Assembly: GCA_027315165.1 (NCBI GenBank)
Contig: DAHUYN010000005.1
Coordinates: forward strand, 62,001-126,000
DNA length: 64,000 nt
Reading direction: 5' to 3'
From: Thermoplasmata archaeon
GTDB taxonomy: Archaea; Thermoplasmatota; Thermoplasmata; Lutacidiplasmatales; UBA184
Shown: piece by piece, positions 28,013-58,279 of the stretch
How the letters are laid out: each line of letters begins with the position of its first letter
Numbering within the stretch: position 1 is the stretch's first letter
Notes under the pieces: model-generated
The model's database searches: none
Told to the model about the DNA's origin: nothing
The model's input: only the letters and a program-made list of their open reading frames with translations
Made by a program: the position numbers and the translations under genes

Positions 28013-28074
28013 GGGGTTCGTACGGGTGGGGGCCGTATTAACCCTCCCCGGCTGGCCGCGTGGGGCACCGCCCG

Positions 28075-28914
28075 ATGCCGGTCCGGATCCTCGAGGGCGA
28101 CGCGCGCGTCGTCGACGGGGTCGCTCGCGCGTCGGTCCAGCTCGTCGTCACCTCCCCGCCGTACCCGATGATCCCCCAGTGGGACGGGCTGTTCTCCCAG
28201 CTCGGCGCCCACGACTACGGCGCGCAGCACCGGGTGCTCGCCGAGGTCTGGGCGCGCTGCGCCGACGCGCTCGTGCCGGGGGGGCTCTTGGCGATCAACA
28301 TCGGCGACGCCCTCCGGTCGAACGCGGCGGGGTTCCGGCTCTTCCCCAACCATGTCGACACGACGAACGCGTGCACGGCCCTCGGCCTCGTGCCGCTCCC
28401 CTACCTCCTCTGGAAGAAGCCGACGAACCGGCCGAACGCCTTCCTCGGCTCCGGCTTCCTGCCGCCGAACGCCTACGTGACGCTCGACTGCGAGTACATC
28501 CTGCTGTTCCGCAAGGGCTCCCTGCGCCGGCTCCCGCCGCACGACCCCGCCCGGCTCGCGAGCCGGTTCACCAAGGCCGAGAGGGACCGCTGGTTCTCCC
28601 AGGTCTGGAGCGACATCCGGGGCGTCCGTCAGGGCCCCGACGGGCGCCGGACCGGCGCCTTCCCCGCCGAGGTCCCGGAACGCCTCATCCGGATGTTCTC
28701 CTGCGTCGGCGAGACCGTCCTCGACCCGTTCGCGGGGACCGGGACGACGCTCTGGGCGGCCCACCGCTGGGGACGCGAGGCGATCGGGATCGAGATCGAC
28801 GCCGGCGCCGCGGCGCGTCTCAGGGCGCGGGCTCTCGCGCTCGCGCCTCCGACGGAGGCTCCGCGACGGCCTGCGCCTCGCGTTGCTGCAGCTCCTCGTC
28901 GACCGCCTGCCTGA
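28075..28914 (+). CDS. DNA methyltransferase (N4/N6 amino-MTase, beta-like order)
   Basis: VVTSPPYPMIPQWDG... and VLDPFAGTGTTLWAAHRWGREAIGIEID. Confidence 0.9.
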   Translation: MPVRILEGDARVVDGVARASVQLVVTSPPYPMIPQWDGLFSQLGAHDYGAQHRVLAEVWARCADALVPGGLLAINIGDALRSNAAGFRLFPNHVDTTNACTALGLVPLPYLLWKKPTNRPNAFLGSGFLPPNAYVTLDCEYILLFRKGSLRRLPPHDPARLASRFTKAERDRWFSQVWSDIRGVRQGPDGRRTGAFPAEVPERLIRMFSCVGETVLDPFAGTGTTLWAAHRWGREAIGIEIDAGAAARLRARALALAPPTEAPRRPAPRVAAAPRRPPA

Positions 28915-29362
28915 GGTAGCGGAGCGCCGGCTCGTGGAGCCGGTCCAGGTGGAGCAGGAGGTAGTGCAGGTAGACGCGCTCCGGCCGTTGCGACGGGCCC
29001 GGGGCGCGGGCGGGGTGCGCCGCAGCGACGCTCGCCAACGTCGGAGCGTGGTGCTCAAGACCCGGTCCGTGGAGCGCGCGGCCCGTGGCGCCGGTCAGCG
29101 GCGGGGAGATCCGATCGACCGGATCGGTCGTCCCGTCCTCGACGGCCGGGTCGTCTGGGGGGGCGAGCGTGGCGGGGCCGCTGTGCCCGTGCACCGCGTG
29201 CGCGCCCGGTCCGAGCTTGGCCTTGAGGTAGGGGTGGACCGGGCGGGCCGGATCCTGGAAGTCGGAGATCGGACGGCCCGAGAGGTCCTCGACGATGGTC
29301 TTGAGGCTCCAGCTCTCGCGCCGACGGGGCGGGCCGTCGGGGGTCGCGACGATCTCCGCCAC
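28820..29362 (-). CDS. Hypothetical protein at end of T4SS-like operon
   Basis: SWSLKTIVEDLSGRPISDFQDPARPVHPYLKAKLGPGAHAVHG...; downstream of VirB4-like gene; 3' end overlaps the convergent MTase by about 95 bp. Confidence 0.6.
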   Translation of the reverse strand: MAEIVATPDGPPRRRESWSLKTIVEDLSGRPISDFQDPARPVHPYLKAKLGPGAHAVHGHSGPATLAPPDDPAVEDGTTDPVDRISPPLTGATGRALHGPGLEHHAPTLASVAAAHPARAPGPSQRPERVYLHYLLLHLDRLHEPALRYLRQAVDEELQQREAQAVAEPPSEARAREPAP

Positions 29363-29414
29363 GCGCCACGCTCCCTTTCACGACAGATAAACCTGAGGTT
29401 CCACGGGTGCGGCG

Positions 29415-31106
29415 CTACGGCGGTGCGGGGCGACGGGCGCCTCCTTCGGGCGCCTCTTGCGGCCGGCCGAGCGCGTGCGAGAGCAGCTCGAACTCGGGCG
29501 TCGCGGCGACGAGCGCGAGCGGCAGGTGCGCCGGGCCGAAGCGGAGGAGCGCTTCCGAGTAGCCGGCCTCGCGCGGGAGCCGCGCGCGCGGCAGCCAGTC
29601 GGCCTCGACCTCCGTGAGCCCGAAGAAGCTCCGGGCCGCGGCCGAGACCTCGGGCAGTCGCAGGAGGAACGTCGCCCGGAGGTTGCGGAGCATCGACCGC
29701 CCCGACTCGGTCGCGAGGAAGTCGTCGGGCTGCTGGCTCAGGAGGAGCACGCCCGCCTCGTAGTGGCGGAGACGTCGCACGAGCGTGTCGAGGTAGGCGG
29801 CCGTCCCGGGGTCGCGCGCGAGCAGGTACGCCTCGTCGAGCACGACGAGCTTCGGGCCCGGCCGCTCTCGGCACCGGCCCTGGACCGCATCGAGGAGGTA
29901 GGCCAGGTGGAACGGCAGGTGCCCCTCGGGGACCCCCGTGAGGTCGACGACGGTGAGCGAGGCGTCCCAGCCCGCGGTCGTCGGTCCGTTGAGATAGCTC
30001 AGCGACCCGCTCCGGAACACCTCGAGCAGGGAGCGGAGGCGCTCGAGGGAGCGCGAGGCCGGGTCGATCGCCTCGAGGAGGTCGGAGAAGACCGGCACCG
30101 CGGGGCCGTCGCGATAGAGCCGGCGGAGCGCGGCGTCGAGCGCGCTCACCTCCTCGTCGAGCAGGCTCGGGAACAGCGCCCGGAGCACGAGGCCGACCCG
30201 CCCGGCCTTCTCCGCCCGGTCCCCTCCCGTCGTCGCCGGGTCGAGCGGGTTCCACCGTCCTCCGCGCCCCTCGGCGACGCCGACGACCGCGCCCCCGAGG
30301 CTTCGCGCGAGGCCGGCGAACTCCCCGAGCGGGTCGAGGACGATCACTTCGAGCTCGGGCCGCATCCACAGGGAGCGGAGCACGGTGAGCGCCGTGAAGA
30401 ACGACTTGCCCGAGCCGGTCGCGCCGAAGACGCCCCAGGAGTAGCTCGCGTGGGCCCAGCGGTCCAGGAGGACGGGGCTCGCGTCCTCGAGGAGGAGTCC
30501 GACGAGGACGCCCCCCGGCTCCGCGACGGTCTCGTCGACGAACGGGAAGAACGCGGCGACGCCGTCGCTCGGCAGCGTGTGCCAGTAGCCGGGGGGCCGC
30601 CGCTCGGTCCCGAGGAGGTCCGGCGCCGACGCGGCCGGGCGGGCCTCGAACGTCGGCACCCGGGGCCGGAAGCCGACGCTCCGCAGTCGCCTCGAGACCT
30701 CGGCGCGGATCCGCTCGGCGCGGGCGACGGTCGCCGCGACCCCGTGGACCGAGAGGCCGACCCGCCACAGGTCCTGTTCGCGGGCGGCGACGCGCGCGGC
30801 GATCGCCTTCGCCCCCTCCGCCTCGCGCTCGAGCTGGGCCGGTCGCGCCCCCTCGACGCCCGCCTCTTGCGCGAGCTCCGCCTCGGCGACGGCGCGCGCC
30901 CGGTCGAGGAGCCCGAGCGCCTGGTCCGAGGGGAGTCGGTGGAGCTGCATCCGGAGCTCCGCGCTCATCGTCGTGGGCAAGAGCTTGCCCGCGAACCCGA
31001 AGGCGACCTCCGACGGGAGCTCGGGGAGGAGGAGCGGTGCGTCGACGCGCGTGCCGCGCCGCGCCCAGCCCGGCCCCTCGGCGTCGGGCCGTTCGGTCGC
31101 GGCCAT
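29415..31106 (-). CDS. VirB4/TraC/CedB-like conjugation-type ATPase
   Basis: YSWGVFGATGSGKSFFTALTVLRSLWMRPELEVIVLDPLGEFAGLARSLGG, PKLVVLDEAYLLARDPGTAAYLDTLVRRLRHYEAGVLLLSQQPDDFL. Confidence 0.9.
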   Translation of the reverse strand: MAATERPDAEGPGWARRGTRVDAPLLLPELPSEVAFGFAGKLLPTTMSAELRMQLHRLPSDQALGLLDRARAVAEAELAQEAGVEGARPAQLEREAEGAKAIAARVAAREQDLWRVGLSVHGVAATVARAERIRAEVSRRLRSVGFRPRVPTFEARPAASAPDLLGTERRPPGYWHTLPSDGVAAFFPFVDETVAEPGGVLVGLLLEDASPVLLDRWAHASYSWGVFGATGSGKSFFTALTVLRSLWMRPELEVIVLDPLGEFAGLARSLGGAVVGVAEGRGGRWNPLDPATTGGDRAEKAGRVGLVLRALFPSLLDEEVSALDAALRRLYRDGPAVPVFSDLLEAIDPASRSLERLRSLLEVFRSGSLSYLNGPTTAGWDASLTVVDLTGVPEGHLPFHLAYLLDAVQGRCRERPGPKLVVLDEAYLLARDPGTAAYLDTLVRRLRHYEAGVLLLSQQPDDFLATESGRSMLRNLRATFLLRLPEVSAAARSFFGLTEVEADWLPRARLPREAGYSEALLRFGPAHLPLALVAATPEFELLSHALGRPQEAPEGGARRPAPP

Positions 31107-31107
31107 C

Positions 31108-31482
31108 TCAGACCCCCCCGAACGGGACGCGGTGGCGGAAGCGCCACCACAGCGGGAACGCGGCGAGCGCGACCGTGAGCCCGCGCCACGGCGCGAGCGC
31201 CTCGGGCAGCAGCGGGAGCGCGGCCCACCCCGCGAGCGCGAGCGCGAACGGGAGCGGGCGTCGCGCGCCGCTCCCTCGGGCCGGGGCCGGCGGCGGGCCT
31301 CGACGCCCCTCGCGGAGCGCGGCGAGGGCGAGGAGGAGGCCGGCGAGCGCAAGCGTGAGCCCGAGGAAGTAGGGGAGCAAGAGCGCGAGCGCCCCGCCGA
31401 GCAGCGCGAACGCCCCCGCGGCCTCGACCGGGTCCATCTCGAGCGGCATCGGGGCCCGGCGACGACGCGTCGGCGGGCGCAT
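31108..31482 (-). CDS. Small membrane protein in T4SS-like operon
   Basis: AAGAFALLGGALALLLPYFLGLTLALAGLLLALAALREG...GLTVALAAFPLWWRFRHRVPF. Confidence 0.65.
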   Translation of the reverse strand: MRPPTRRRRAPMPLEMDPVEAAGAFALLGGALALLLPYFLGLTLALAGLLLALAALREGRRGPPPAPARGSGARRPLPFALALAGWAALPLLPEALAPWRGLTVALAAFPLWWRFRHRVPFGGV

Positions 31483-32261
31483 CAGCCGCCTCCGAGGGCG
31501 ATCCCGAGCCGATCGGCCTCGCCCCGCAGGGCGGCGCCCGTGAGCCGCGTCGCGGGGACGCCGAGCTGCTCGAGCGCTTCGAGGAGGCGGCGGACCGCCC
31601 GCTCGAGCCTCGGGCCCTCCTCGTCGGCCGGGCCGGGGCTCCACAGCACGATCGTGACGCGGCGGCGGGCGCGCCGTCGGCAGACGACCCCGAGGAGCTC
31701 GTCGTAGGCGGCCCGGGCGGCGGCCTCGACGCCGACCCCCGGCACCGACGGAGCGCTCGGCCGGTAGAGCCCGTCGTGCATGGGCGTGAGCCCCGAGACG
31801 AGGTAGAGCCCCGCCTCGGTGCCGTCCAGGAGCCGCCGGAACCCCTCGAAGAGACGGCGCGCGTCGGCGGGTGGGAGGAAGGCGACCGGGACGCCGCCGG
31901 CAACGAGGACGGCGAGCCGCAGGCCCGACGCGCTCGGGACCGTGCCCGCGGACGGGATCGCCGCGCCTCGGGACGGCCCCGAGGGAGATCGCCGTCGACG
32001 GAGGCGGAAGGCGAGGTAGTCGGCCAGGTGCTCGTCCGGCGACCTCCCCTCGCGACGGTAGGTCGCGGCGAGCAGGCCGACGCCGACGAACGGCAGCCAG
32101 CCGACGGGTCCGACGAGCGCCGCCGCGGCCGCGCCGACGCCGGCGTACCCCGCGAACTTGAGGGCCTGCCCGACGGAGGGGAACGGACCGAGGCGCATCC
32201 TCCGGTCGAACGGCTCGGGCAGCTCGATGCGCACCGGGCCCTCGCCCGCCGCCTCCGTCAT
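31482..32261 (-). CDS. PrgI/VirB3-like membrane protein with soluble C-terminal domain
   Basis: FDRRMRLGPFPSVGQALKFAGYAGVGAAAAALVGPVGWLPFVGVGLLAATYRREGRSPDEHLADYLAFRLRRR. Confidence 0.6.
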   Translation of the reverse strand: MTEAAGEGPVRIELPEPFDRRMRLGPFPSVGQALKFAGYAGVGAAAAALVGPVGWLPFVGVGLLAATYRREGRSPDEHLADYLAFRLRRRRSPSGPSRGAAIPSAGTVPSASGLRLAVLVAGGVPVAFLPPADARRLFEGFRRLLDGTEAGLYLVSGLTPMHDGLYRPSAPSVPGVGVEAAARAAYDELLGVVCRRRARRRVTIVLWSPGPADEEGPRLERAVRRLLEALEQLGVPATRLTGAALRGEADRLGIALGGG

Positions 32262-33388
32262 GACGGGCCTCCCCGAGAGCCCGCCGCGCCTTTCGGGACG
32301 AACCGGTCGGTCACACCGGCGTGCCCTCGCGTGAGATGGCTCACGAGGTGGCTCGCGCCGCGGCCGAGGAAGTCCCCCGCCAGGAGCGGGATCGACGCGG
32401 GGAAGGCGGCGCGGCCGAGGGTCCGACCCGCCGAGCCGGCGGCGCCCTGGAGCGGCTTGGCGAGCCCCGGGACCTGCTCGAGCGGGCGGACGACCCCGCC
32501 CGCGGCCATCGAGGCGGCGCCGAGCCCGCGCTGGAGGGCGCCGCCGACGGCGGCCCCGGCGTTGCCGAAGCCGACGCTCGAGAGCGACGAGCCCGCGACG
32601 TTGACGATCGCCGGCGCCCCGACGGCGACGGTGAGGTAGCCGAGGAGCATCAGGATGTTCGGCGCGCCGACGGCGAGCTCGAGCGGGATCACGACGACGC
32701 ACGGGAGGAACGCGAGCTCGCCGAACCACAGCCACGCGCGCCGCGCCGCGGGCGCGAACGTGGGGATCGGCCAGAGGATCGTGAGGACCGGGAGCAGGAC
32801 GAGGAGGACGGCGAGGAGCGCGTCCCGCAGCGCGACGGCGGCGGCGAGCGCCATCACGAGCGCGAACAGGGCGAAGGTGAGCACGAAGGCGAGCGCCCCG
32901 TTGTCCCAGGAGAACGACAGCTCCCCGACGCCGGCGAGGGCCATCCAGTGCTGCCAGGCCCCGCCGTCCCACGAGGCGATCATCGGGTAGGTGGCGGCGG
33001 CGAGGCCGAGGATCGCCCCGGCGACGGGGAGCGTGAAGTTGGCGAGCAGGACGGCGACGACGAGACGGCCGAGGAGCGGCTCGAGGCGGCCCCGCCAGGC
33101 GCCGAAGAAGGCGCGGGCCAGGAAGACGAGCGCGACGCCGACGGCGACGAGGGCGATCGCCGGGTCGACGAGGTTCGAGATGAGGTAGCCGCTGAACGCG
33201 GTGGCGCCCGCCAGGAACGACGTCGACCCGGCCGGTGGAGGGAACGACGGGAACAGCGCCCCCGGCGCGAGCTCCGGCACGAGGAGGTTGTCGTAGGTCG
33301 GGCCGATCACGGCGGCGAGGATCGCCGTGAGGCCGGCGAACAGCGTGAAGAGGAACGCCTGGATCGCCGGCCCCGTCCAGTCCGTCAC
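32258..33388 (-). CDS. Polytopic VirB6/TrbL/CedA-like membrane protein
   Basis: 377 codons, about 7-8 hydrophobic segments then Gly/Ala-rich tail (GNAGAAVGGALQRGLGAASMAAGGVV). Confidence 0.65.
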   Translation of the reverse strand: MTDWTGPAIQAFLFTLFAGLTAILAAVIGPTYDNLLVPELAPGALFPSFPPPAGSTSFLAGATAFSGYLISNLVDPAIALVAVGVALVFLARAFFGAWRGRLEPLLGRLVVAVLLANFTLPVAGAILGLAAATYPMIASWDGGAWQHWMALAGVGELSFSWDNGALAFVLTFALFALVMALAAAVALRDALLAVLLVLLPVLTILWPIPTFAPAARRAWLWFGELAFLPCVVVIPLELAVGAPNILMLLGYLTVAVGAPAIVNVAGSSLSSVGFGNAGAAVGGALQRGLGAASMAAGGVVRPLEQVPGLAKPLQGAAGSAGRTLGRAAFPASIPLLAGDFLGRGASHLVSHLTRGHAGVTDRFVPKGAAGSRGGPS

Positions 33389-33401
33389 GGTGCCTCCTCG
33401 C

Positions 33402-33764
33402 TCAGGTGCCCGTGATCACCCAGTGGGCGAGCCCCCACAGGAGACCCGACAACGCCGCGACGAACAGCAGCGTGCCGATCAGCGCGTCCCGGGCCCGGTC
33501 CTTGGCCTGCACCTTCTTGGTGACGTCATTGGAGAACCAGCTCAGCGCGACCCGGGTCCAGACGACGGCGAGGAGGCCGCTGCCCGAGAGGCCGAGCAGC
33601 GTGACGATGCGCTGGATGGCGGCCGTGAAGTTCTCGACGGGCGTCGACGACGCGTCCCCGGTGAGCCCGGCCGGCGCGTGGCCGAACGGCAGCGGCGCCG
33701 GCGGCGCCCCGGGGACGAGCAGGAGCAGGCCGAGGAGGACCCCGACGGCGGGACCGAGGCTCAC
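33402..33764 (-). CDS. VirB2/TrbC-like small two-TM protein with signal-like N-terminus
   Basis: VSLGPAVGVLLGLLLLVPGAPPAPLPFG...FTAAIQRIVTLLGLSGSGLLAVVWTRVALSWFSNDVTKKVQAKDRARDALIGTLLFVAALSGLLWGLAHWVITGT. Confidence 0.6.
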   Translation of the reverse strand: MSLGPAVGVLLGLLLLVPGAPPAPLPFGHAPAGLTGDASSTPVENFTAAIQRIVTLLGLSGSGLLAVVWTRVALSWFSNDVTKKVQAKDRARDALIGTLLFVAALSGLLWGLAHWVITGT

Positions 33765-35431
33765 GGGACCTCCTCGAGGGCGTCGCCCGCCTCCTCGGCG
33801 GGGCTCCAGGAGAGGGTCTCGGCCCCCTCGCTCCCGCGCTCGAGCCGGACCCGGCCCGCGCGGAGCCACCGCGAGAGCGCCTCCTCGGCCGCAGGACGCG
33901 CGACGCCGGCGTCCTCGGCGAGGAAGACGAGCGTCTCCCGGTCGAGCGTGCCCCCGTCCCGAAGGAGCCGACGGACCTCGTCGAGGGCCCGGCGGCTCGC
34001 GGTCCCGTCCGGGCCCGCCGTGGGACCGGGGCGCGACCGTCGGACGAGGAGGTACCCGACTCCCACGAGGGCCGGCACGAGCGCGAGGAGGGCGAGCGAC
34101 GAGAGCCCCGGGCCTCCTGCGGACGCCGGTGCCTCGACCGGGGCCGAGCGGTTCACATCGACGACGGTGACCTCGGCGACCGAGCGGAGCGGGTCGCCGA
34201 ACCCGTCGACGACCTCGAGCGTGAGGAGGATCGGGCCGGCCGCCGTCGGCGAGAGGCTCGCATTGACCGACCCCGGCCCCGTGAGGTTCCCGGTCTCCGC
34301 CTCGCCATCGGAGCCGAAGAGGACCCACGCGTACGGGGCGGCCCCGCCGGCGATCGTCGCGCGCAGTCGCAGCGGGGTCGAGGGCGACGGAGCGGGCGTG
34401 AGCACCGCCAAGAAGCCGACGAGCGCGGGCGCGACGCGGACGGAGACGTTCTCGACCGCGGAGCGTCCGGCGCCGTCGGTGGCCGAGACGACGACGGTGA
34501 CGTTCCCCGGGCTCGAGAACGTGCCCGTCCAGGCGACGGTCCCGTTCGTCGTCACCGGGGGGCTCCCGAGGGACTCGTTCCCGACAAAGGCCGTCGCGTC
34601 GACCGAGCAGGCGAGGGGCGGGACCCCCCCGTCCAGGCGGAGCAGCAGGTGCAGCGGCTCGCCGACGTCGACCGCGGCGACCGTCGGCGACACGACGAGC
34701 GAGAAGGCGGGCAGCCCGATCGCCGCGAGCGGCGCGGTCGCGTTCGCGACGGCGCCGACGGCGTCACGCACGACGAGCGTCGCGCTCGCGTTGGCGCCGG
34801 TCGGCGACCCGGTCGGGACCGTGAAGCGGCCGTCCGCGCCGAGCGGGAACGACGTCGCGTAGCCGCTCGGGTGGATCGTGAGGTTCGCCAAGAACGGCGG
34901 CGTCCCCCCGGTGAGCGCGCCGTCGACGAGGAGCCCGGCGCCCGCGGCCGTGTCGGCCGACGCGCCGTCCAGCTCCGCGGCCGGGGGCGGGTTCACCGAG
35001 ACCGTCGCGACGGCCGCCGCCCTCTCGCCCAGGGGGTCGGTCACCGCGGCCGTCAGGACGAGGCTTCCCGAGGCCGTCGGCACCACGCGCCAGGTGGGAC
35101 CCGTCGCGTGGCCGCCCTCGGAGTCGATCCAGAGGACGTCGTAGGGAGGGGTCCCGCCCCCCGGCAGCGCCGTCGCGACGACGGCCTGGCCGAGGTCGGT
35201 CGCGGACGGAGAGACGGTGACGACGAGCGTGAGGGGGAGCACGCCGACGCTCGGCGCCTCGTCGAGGCCGAGAGACGCCCCGGTCGCGGCCCGCGCGGGC
35301 AGCTCCCACAAGAGCGGGGCGAGGCCGGGCACGAGCCCGCCGAGCGGGATCGCGGCGACCACGAGGACGATCGACGTTCGCGCCAGGTCGAGGCTCACGC
35401 GCGGGAGTTCGGACTGCTTCACGAGGGCCAC
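33761..35431 (-). CDS. PKD/Ig-like surface protein with TM and cytoplasmic winged-helix-like tail
   Basis: Repeats GGTPPYDVLWIDSEGG..., LALLALVPALVGVGYLLVRRSRP, then RRALDEVRRLLRDGGTLDRETLVFLAEDAGVARPAAEEALSRWLRAGRVRLERG. Confidence 0.75.
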   Translation of the reverse strand: MALVKQSELPRVSLDLARTSIVLVVAAIPLGGLVPGLAPLLWELPARAATGASLGLDEAPSVGVLPLTLVVTVSPSATDLGQAVVATALPGGGTPPYDVLWIDSEGGHATGPTWRVVPTASGSLVLTAAVTDPLGERAAAVATVSVNPPPAAELDGASADTAAGAGLLVDGALTGGTPPFLANLTIHPSGYATSFPLGADGRFTVPTGSPTGANASATLVVRDAVGAVANATAPLAAIGLPAFSLVVSPTVAAVDVGEPLHLLLRLDGGVPPLACSVDATAFVGNESLGSPPVTTNGTVAWTGTFSSPGNVTVVVSATDGAGRSAVENVSVRVAPALVGFLAVLTPAPSPSTPLRLRATIAGGAAPYAWVLFGSDGEAETGNLTGPGSVNASLSPTAAGPILLTLEVVDGFGDPLRSVAEVTVVDVNRSAPVEAPASAGGPGLSSLALLALVPALVGVGYLLVRRSRPGPTAGPDGTASRRALDEVRRLLRDGGTLDRETLVFLAEDAGVARPAAEEALSRWLRAGRVRLERGSEGAETLSWSPAEEAGDALEEVP

Positions 35432-42484: not shown

Positions 42485-42588
42485 TGTCGGGGGGGGGATT
42501 TGAACCCCCGGCCCCAGGATCTCTCCAGGAACGGCCCCCGGCCGCCCCTCTATGAGTCCCGTGCTCTACCGGGCTGAGCCACCCCGAC
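42485..42588 (-). tRNA. tRNA-Met(CAT), elongator type, with about 30-nt intron
   Basis: GTCGGGGTGGCTCAGCCCGGTAGAGCACGGGACTCATA [gaggggcggccgggggccgttcctggagag] ATCCTGGGGCCGGGGGTTCAAATCCCCCCCCCGAC-A; intron at 37/38. Confidence 0.9.
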
Positions 42589-58173: not shown

Positions 58174-58279
58174 TCCCGGCTGCCTGACTCGAACAGGCGA
58201 CCTGAGGATATCCACGGGGGCCGCCGGTGACCGGCGGTCTCGCCTACAGTCCCCCGCTCTACCACTGAGCTAAGCCGGG
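58174..58279 (-). tRNA. tRNA-Tyr(GTA) with intron of about 33 nt
   Basis: CCCGGCTTAGCTCAGTGGTAGAGCGGGGGACTGTAG [gcgagaccgccggtcaccggcggcccccgtggat] ATCCTCAGGTCGCCTGTTCGAGTCAGGCAGCCGGG-A; C1-G72 typical of archaeal tRNA-Tyr. Confidence 0.9.

Follow-up and report, generated by a model that had tools for sequence, protein, structure and literature searches.

The question raised by a cluster of seven genes in a Thermoplasmata archaeon is whether it encodes a type IV secretion system (T4SS) that belongs to the chromosome and, if so, what such a system would move. The cluster lies at 28820-35431 (- strand) of a 64,000-nucleotide stretch, referred to here as the window (contig DAHUYN010000005.1 of assembly GCA_027315165.1, order Lutacidiplasmatales). 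An earlier, sequence-only reading had described seven genes there (P0001 to P0007 in order of transcription; Table 1) and proposed a T4SS-related DNA-transfer locus resembling the crenarchaeal Ced and Ted systems. All seven same-direction open reading frames (ORFs) are present exactly as then placed, and the T4SS relationship was borne out by profile searches, with a VirB4 ATPase accompanied by pilin-, VirB6- and VirB3-like partners. We think it rather probable that the locus is a domesticated T4SS, fixed in the chromosomes of Ca. Lutacidiplasmatales and related Thermoplasmata, that most likely moves single-stranded DNA (ssDNA) within the population.

The ATPase of the system, P0006, is VirB4-type. 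It carries the motifs GATGSGKS and LVVLDEAYLLA, both invariant or nearly so in 25 orthologues, and its best model was the NCBIfam VirB4 CD1110 family (E 2.6e-33), with VirB4_CagE at 1e-13. A profile of the 25 orthologues matched the solved TVirB4 structure 4ag5 (E 4e-36). The CedD model reached 1.4e-4 (20.7 bits, cut-off 600) and HerA 0.055, while CedB was not among the listed matches. A HerA/FtsK identity was rejected since these models were far weaker than those of VirB4, in keeping with the VirB4-type ATPase of the sequence-only reading.

The VirB4 is divided over P0004 and P0006, and the break falls within its N-terminal domain. When set against the fused PrgI-VirB4 that sister genera carry in conjugative-element-like loci, the P0004 family aligned to residues 1-302 (hhalign 98.3%, E 9e-14) and the P0006 family to residues 304-902 (hhalign 100%, E 2e-104), which describes one VirB4 with VirB3 in front and a single break. 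P0004 had been taken for a PrgI/VirB3-like gene; the VirB3 domain is there, but so is the first part of the VirB4 N-terminal domain. The PrgI model matched 3 of 21 P0004 orthologues (best 0.01) and the N-terminus of the fused PrgI-VirB4 at 2.7e-4, under the curated cut-off; the VirB3/PrgI membrane protein of a T4SS is recognised in P0004 via its alignment to the PrgI and N-terminal-domain part of the fused protein. The predicted structure of P0004 (predicted local distance difference test score, pLDDT, 82) shows strands and helices in alternation beyond the membrane hairpin; its highest-probability Foldseek matches were R388 TrwK/VirB4 (0.96, 0.94), with E > 0.01 and none at E 0.001, a result that is no more than supportive. 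Between P0004 and P0006, an ORF with 2-4 transmembrane (TM) helices was found by hydropathy in 19 of 21 family loci, and in the remaining two the P0005 equivalent in this position was matched by BLAST. One genome of the class (G190) has a P0005-type protein fused to the VirB4 N-terminus (L085, 647 aa, TM helices at 13, 33 and 56), which suggests that P0005 works with the ATPase.

The pilin and pore assignments were built from several partial matches. P0002, which has a signal peptide and two TM helices, contains an invariant charged loop, KKVQAKDRARDA; PF18895 T4SS_pilin matched 11 of its 24 orthologues (best 2.5e-5), and the family aligned to the pilins encoded in the operons of f31 and f19, two other families of the class (hhalign 99%). 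The pilin of family f11, encoded at the corresponding place in its operon, passes PF04956 TrbC/VirB2. No hhalign signal was obtained between the P0002 family and either the element-borne or the f11 pilin. Its Pfam matches, its architecture and its place in the operon make P0002 a predicted VirB2-like pilin, so that a candidate for the VirB2/TrbC-type pilin of a T4SS is present. P0003 is likewise a predicted VirB6-like polytopic channel protein: it aligned with the VirB6-like protein that the conjugative-element-like loci encode (hhalign 96.8%) and, in five other families, with the proteins that take its place in the operon (97-99%), three f11 counterparts match PF04610 TrbL/VirB6 under the cut-off (up to 2.5e-4), and among 243 genomes of the phylum matches to the VirB6-like profile were confined to Thermoplasmata. 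Sequence searches of the PDB with P0002, P0003, P0004 and class-wide pilin profiles returned no T4SS relative, and with the pilin profiles no relative of CedA/TedA or CedA1/TedC. In family f15, a pilin-like hairpin was seen at the C-terminus of large proteins (L080:12826-17703, L082:12901-14076), with several tandem ORFs in L080; these are possibly pilins with big heads.

The locus is chromosomal and vertically inherited. The gene unit is kept in order across 7 genera of family f1. In three of these (g1, g6 and g7; ~15 loci), the order fibrillarin, transfer genes, methyltransferase and HPS-RraA is also retained, in agreement with the earlier placement of the locus between fibrillarin and HPS-RraA genes; such a repeated arrangement with its neighbours is more than chance. 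Genera g2-g5 of the same family have the core without these neighbours. Pairwise distances of the ATPase tracked those of the flanking genes (Mantel r 0.64 with HPS and 0.68 with fibrillarin, compared with 0.66 between HPS and fibrillarin), and those of the pilin did so weakly (0.26-0.29). In the tree, chromosomal VirB4s formed one clade with support of 100, separate from element-borne homologues. The six genes tested are all under purifying selection (dN/dS, the ratio of nonsynonymous to synonymous rates, 0.12-0.35), dS being hard to estimate at this G+C.

Presence across genomes points the same way. The ATPase was found in 85/106 genomes of the order and in 85/103 of family f1, where 85.4 would be expected from summed completeness if it were universal. 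Among genomes at least 90% complete, 5/38 were without the locus (2.6 expected). In five locus-less genus-mates tested, HPS-RraA was also missing and fibrillarin was present only as a divergent paralogue, so that the region was more likely unassembled than lost. With flanking genes missing and a total that fits incompleteness, real loss from high-completeness genomes was rejected as the default, and a few true losses are possible. Taken with the gene distances and the separate clade, these counts sustain the original preference for a domesticated, chromosomal system over a conjugative plasmid. In a separate observation, the ATPase match of one locus (L066, G049:C4:153936-155587) was split over two reading frames, by sequencing error or as a real pseudogene.

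An integrative conjugative element (ICE) that is decaying or resident, and stable at one site by chance, would be suggested by the sister genera, which hold element-like loci (L056, L058, L061, L062, L110, L111) with fused PrgI-VirB4 and/or VirD4-like ATPase. In g2 and g4, such loci occur besides the chromosomal core. Their PrgI-VirB4 fusion is 860-950 aa long and is accompanied by a VirB6-like protein, a pilin and a VirD4-like ATPase; some also have a tyrosine-recombinase-like gene that Pfam fails to recognise. They (L056, L058, L061, L062) share PrgI, VirB4, VirB6 and pilin homologues with the window locus, but differ from it in the PrgI-VirB4 fusion, the adjacent VirD4-like ATPase, the recombinase-like gene of some, a patchy distribution and their own VirB4 clade. 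A resident element is at odds with the identical housekeeping genes that flank the locus in three genera, with reading frames that are intact and under purifying selection, with gene distances that follow the neighbours and with the separation of the VirB4 clades. Furthermore, the window holds no VirD4-like gene. Of the features that, with a T4SS, define an ICE (relaxase, integrase and mobile location), no PF03432 relaxase was found in the genome, no integrase-like gene is among the seven, and the location is fixed and syntenic in three genera. We consider this explanation highly improbable and largely refuted.

The coupling ATPase bears on the substrate of the proposed T4SS. The sequence-only reading saw no VirD4-like protein, which is true of the window, but the genome (G000) holds two VirD4/TraG-like ATPases outside it, and thus the VirD4-type component of a T4SS. 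One (C11:187572-189983) has as neighbours two KaiC-type ATPases and another NOP5-fibrillarin pair (L104, G000:C11:180000-199900); the other (L127) shares a contig with the window and lies ~11 kb ahead of the window start. The genome was also seen to have two fibrillarins, each close to part of the transfer system. VirD4/TraG-like genes occur in most genomes of the order; in three genus-mates (G029, G056, G064) the gene adjoins the locus, and in family f31 it directly follows virB4 in 8/8 genomes with both matches. Outside f1, VirD4-like genes were found in 34/67 VirB4-positive and 7/~205 VirB4-negative genomes (raw counts, uncorrected for relatedness). DNA as the substrate is suggested by this VirD4 link and by analogy with Ced and Ted, the domesticated conjugation machineries that move chromosomal DNA in Crenarchaeota (PMC9905601, PMC11868833).

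Several points weigh against a DNA-transferring T4SS. The majority of loci come from metagenome-assembled genomes (MAGs); the window's own P0002 falls under the PF18895 cut-off (E 0.045); P0003 itself has no direct match to any named VirB6 family, and its Foldseek search, with a poor model (pLDDT 66), returned no PDB match. The sequence-only reading had seen no relaxase in the window, and none was found in the genome with PF03432, the sole relaxase family searched; in Patescibacteria, comparable chromosomal T4SSs that lack a relaxase are thought to have been co-opted for roles other than conjugation (PMC12102498). The last two points, together with P0001 as a long and variable surface protein, would suit the main rival, in which the T4SS core was co-opted to export proteins (contact-dependent effectors or surface proteins) instead of DNA. 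However, neither the seven genes nor their conserved neighbours include a recognisable effector-like or toxin/immunity gene, and the known archaeal homologues move DNA (PMC9905601, PMC11868833); we regard protein export as unlikely, if worth keeping in view. A cargo-free pilus or adhesion apparatus, with VirB4 extruding pilin for attachment, would accord with the high conservation of the pilin and the resemblance of P0001 to an adhesin, yet it would leave the VirB6-like pore and the linked VirD4-like ATPases superfluous, and we judge it improbable.

For the DNA-transferring T4SS, we infer a pilus, a motor and a route for the substrate as follows. P0002 would be exported via its signal peptide and polymerise into a thin mating pilus, and P0003 would form the membrane pore. 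Beneath it, P0004 (VirB3 and the first VirB4 N-domain part), P0005 (the TM anchor) and P0006 would assemble as a hexameric motor. The Ig-type domains of P0001 would face outward for contact, and its cytoplasmic winged helix may signal. DNA would probably be fed by a VirD4/TraG-like ATPase encoded elsewhere; given that no PF03432 relaxase was found, the strand would presumably come from cellular end-processing enzymes, as proposed for Ced and Ted. Import and export seem equally possible.

Comparison with known systems places the locus close to Ced and Ted in manner and apart from them in parts. Like Ted of Thermoproteales (TedA/TedB/TedC; PMC9905601), it has a chromosomal, signal-bearing VirB2-like pilin, a VirB6-like pore (predicted here) and a true VirB4-type ATPase, and no relaxase was identified in either (PF03432 here). 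Unlike Ted, it has a split VirB4 with PrgI/VirB3 on the first piece, an Ig-repeat protein and P0007, and its host belongs to another phylum and to moderate-temperature soils; compared with Ted by description, it has no HerA-, ParA- or Rad50-like gene among the seven. Ced of Sulfolobales (CedA, CedA1, CedB, CedD; PMC9905601, PMC11868833) is also domesticated, with the VirB4 N-domain over two polypeptides: in Crenarchaea, its parts are divided between CedB and CedD, both ATPases (PMC11868833). There both pieces are full ATPases, whereas here the first is a membrane protein of VirB3 type that lacks an ATPase domain, and P0006 fits VirB4 models, not CedB or CedD. The Ced/Ted-like label therefore holds for the mode of working, chromosomal, fixed and without a PF03432 relaxase, but not for membership of Ced, whose CedB/CedD-type ATPases were not found (VirB4 2.6e-33 versus CedD 1.4e-4). 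The T4SSs of Patescibacteria (PMC12102498) are similar in being relaxase-poor, chromosomal and FATA-type, with VirB2 pilins, PrgI and a coupling protein mostly away from virB4; they differ in being bacterial, in the epibiotic life of their hosts and in virB3 and virB4 that are unfused, with no VirB4 split described.

Table 1. Genes of the T4SS-like locus and the convergent neighbour, in window coordinates.
Feature	Coordinates	Strand	Description
P0001	33761..35431	-	Membrane or secreted protein; PKD/Ig-like repeats, a single TM helix, winged-helix-like tail
P0002	33402..33764	-	Predicted VirB2-like pilin; signal peptide and two TM helices
P0003	32258..33388	-	Predicted polytopic VirB6-like channel protein with Gly/Ala-rich tail
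P0004	31482..32261	-	PrgI/VirB3-like membrane domain and first part of VirB4 N-terminal domain
P0005	31108..31482	-	Small two-TM protein, probable membrane anchor/partner of VirB4 ATPase
P0006	29415..31106	-	Rest of VirB4 N-terminal domain and VirB4 ATPase domain
P0007	28820..29362	-	Conserved cytoplasmic protein of no recognised family, probable accessory
N6/N4 DNA methyltransferase	28060..28914	+	Convergent conserved neighbour; PF01555 9.7e-32

The genes are tightly packed. Overlaps at three of the six junctions, P0001/P0002 (GTGA, 33761-33764), P0003/P0004 (ATGA, 32258-32261) and P0004/P0005 (TGATG, ~31482), together with the spacing of 1-2 bases between P0005 and P0006, are the usual mark of a single transcript. 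The description of the seven genes as co-directional and mostly overlapping needs amending for P0007, which follows a 52-base gap containing a TATA-like GTTTATCT and may have its own transcript apart from the other six. Upstream of the locus lies fibrillarin (PF01269 3e-58); downstream is the methyltransferase, then an HPS-RraA fusion. Named relatives of the P0006 ATPase are in Thermoplasmata MAGs, of which AcS5-107 and SubAcS15-31 were assigned to Ca. Lutacidiplasmatales in PMC9287336; a word search of that text found no mention of secretion, conjugation or competence. Elsewhere in the window, two tRNA genes of 104-106 bases (42485-42588 and 58174-58279, both - strand) were seen by Rfam and missed by ARAGORN, and probably contain introns.

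P0001 is probably a surface adhesin or sensor of the system, judging from its sequence features. Its Big_9/PKD matches were sub-threshold, the cytoplasmic winged-helix-like tail is kept in 18 orthologues, and orthologue length (~370-1790 aa) varies with the number of Ig/PKD repeats; the protein is order-specific, not being seen in the other families examined. P0007 is a probable accessory. Its orthologues were found at 23 loci, among them loci of genera g3-g5 in which the gene lies downstream of the core, and not in other families of the class; the family has no Pfam or NCBIfam match, and its conserved stretches are SWSLKTIVED and YLHYLLLHLDRL. The methyltransferase, which the syntenic loci in g1, g6 and g7 share, is an orphan N6/N4 enzyme that might mark self DNA. 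In the three genus-mates mentioned above, the VirD4-like gene occupies its position.

Across the class, the ATPase profile was matched at 1e-12 by 134 of 350 sampled genomes, which belong to families f1, f11, f15, f19, f27 and f31. Loci of the other families have pilin, VirB6-like, PrgI/N-terminal-domain and VirB4 genes in unchanged order; the P0005-type TM gene is found in f15 and f27 and is missing from f11, f31 and f19 loci, and in two f19 loci PrgI is apparently re-fused to VirB4. With the exception of one f31 sequence, VirB4s cluster by family, which fits one old domestication and is also compatible with several. Numerous chromosomal VirB4s of archaea, as well as an ICE in A. boonei, were recorded in a 2011 survey (PMC3158045). 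In Cuniculiplasma (Thermoplasmatales), a cluster with VirB4, three membrane proteins and a distant VirD4 was listed as T4SS components (PMC5155288); it is probably the same class-wide core, although that report offers annotation only, without VirB2, VirB3 or VirB6 assignment, split VirB4 or an argument for domestication.

T4SSs are known as a category; what is new here is a class-wide domesticated archaeal T4SS and a VirB4 split into VirB3-bearing and ATPase pieces. We put forward, tentatively and with some doubt, that domestication of a conjugation machine (pilin, VirB6, split VirB4 with VirB3 and TM anchor, and a separate VirD4) took place in an ancestor of the Thermoplasmata, and that much of the class still exchanges DNA by it. 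This would be a second independent archaeal domestication, and the mechanism behind Ferroplasma-type recombination. Recombination has been reported for populations of Ferroplasma, acidophilic Thermoplasmatales; if the proposal is true, it gains a concrete, deletable machine. If the system is conserved and vertical across Thermoplasmata, the reach of domesticated conjugation machinery would be widened to another phylum, including culturable genera. The VirB3-fused split VirB4, alongside CedB and CedD, suggests that division of the VirB4 N-domain recurs on domestication, and such recurrence would test the arrangement of VirB3, VirB4 and the pore relative to one another. With its gene set kept across the class, the locus is a strong, testable candidate for DNA exchange among Thermoplasmata.

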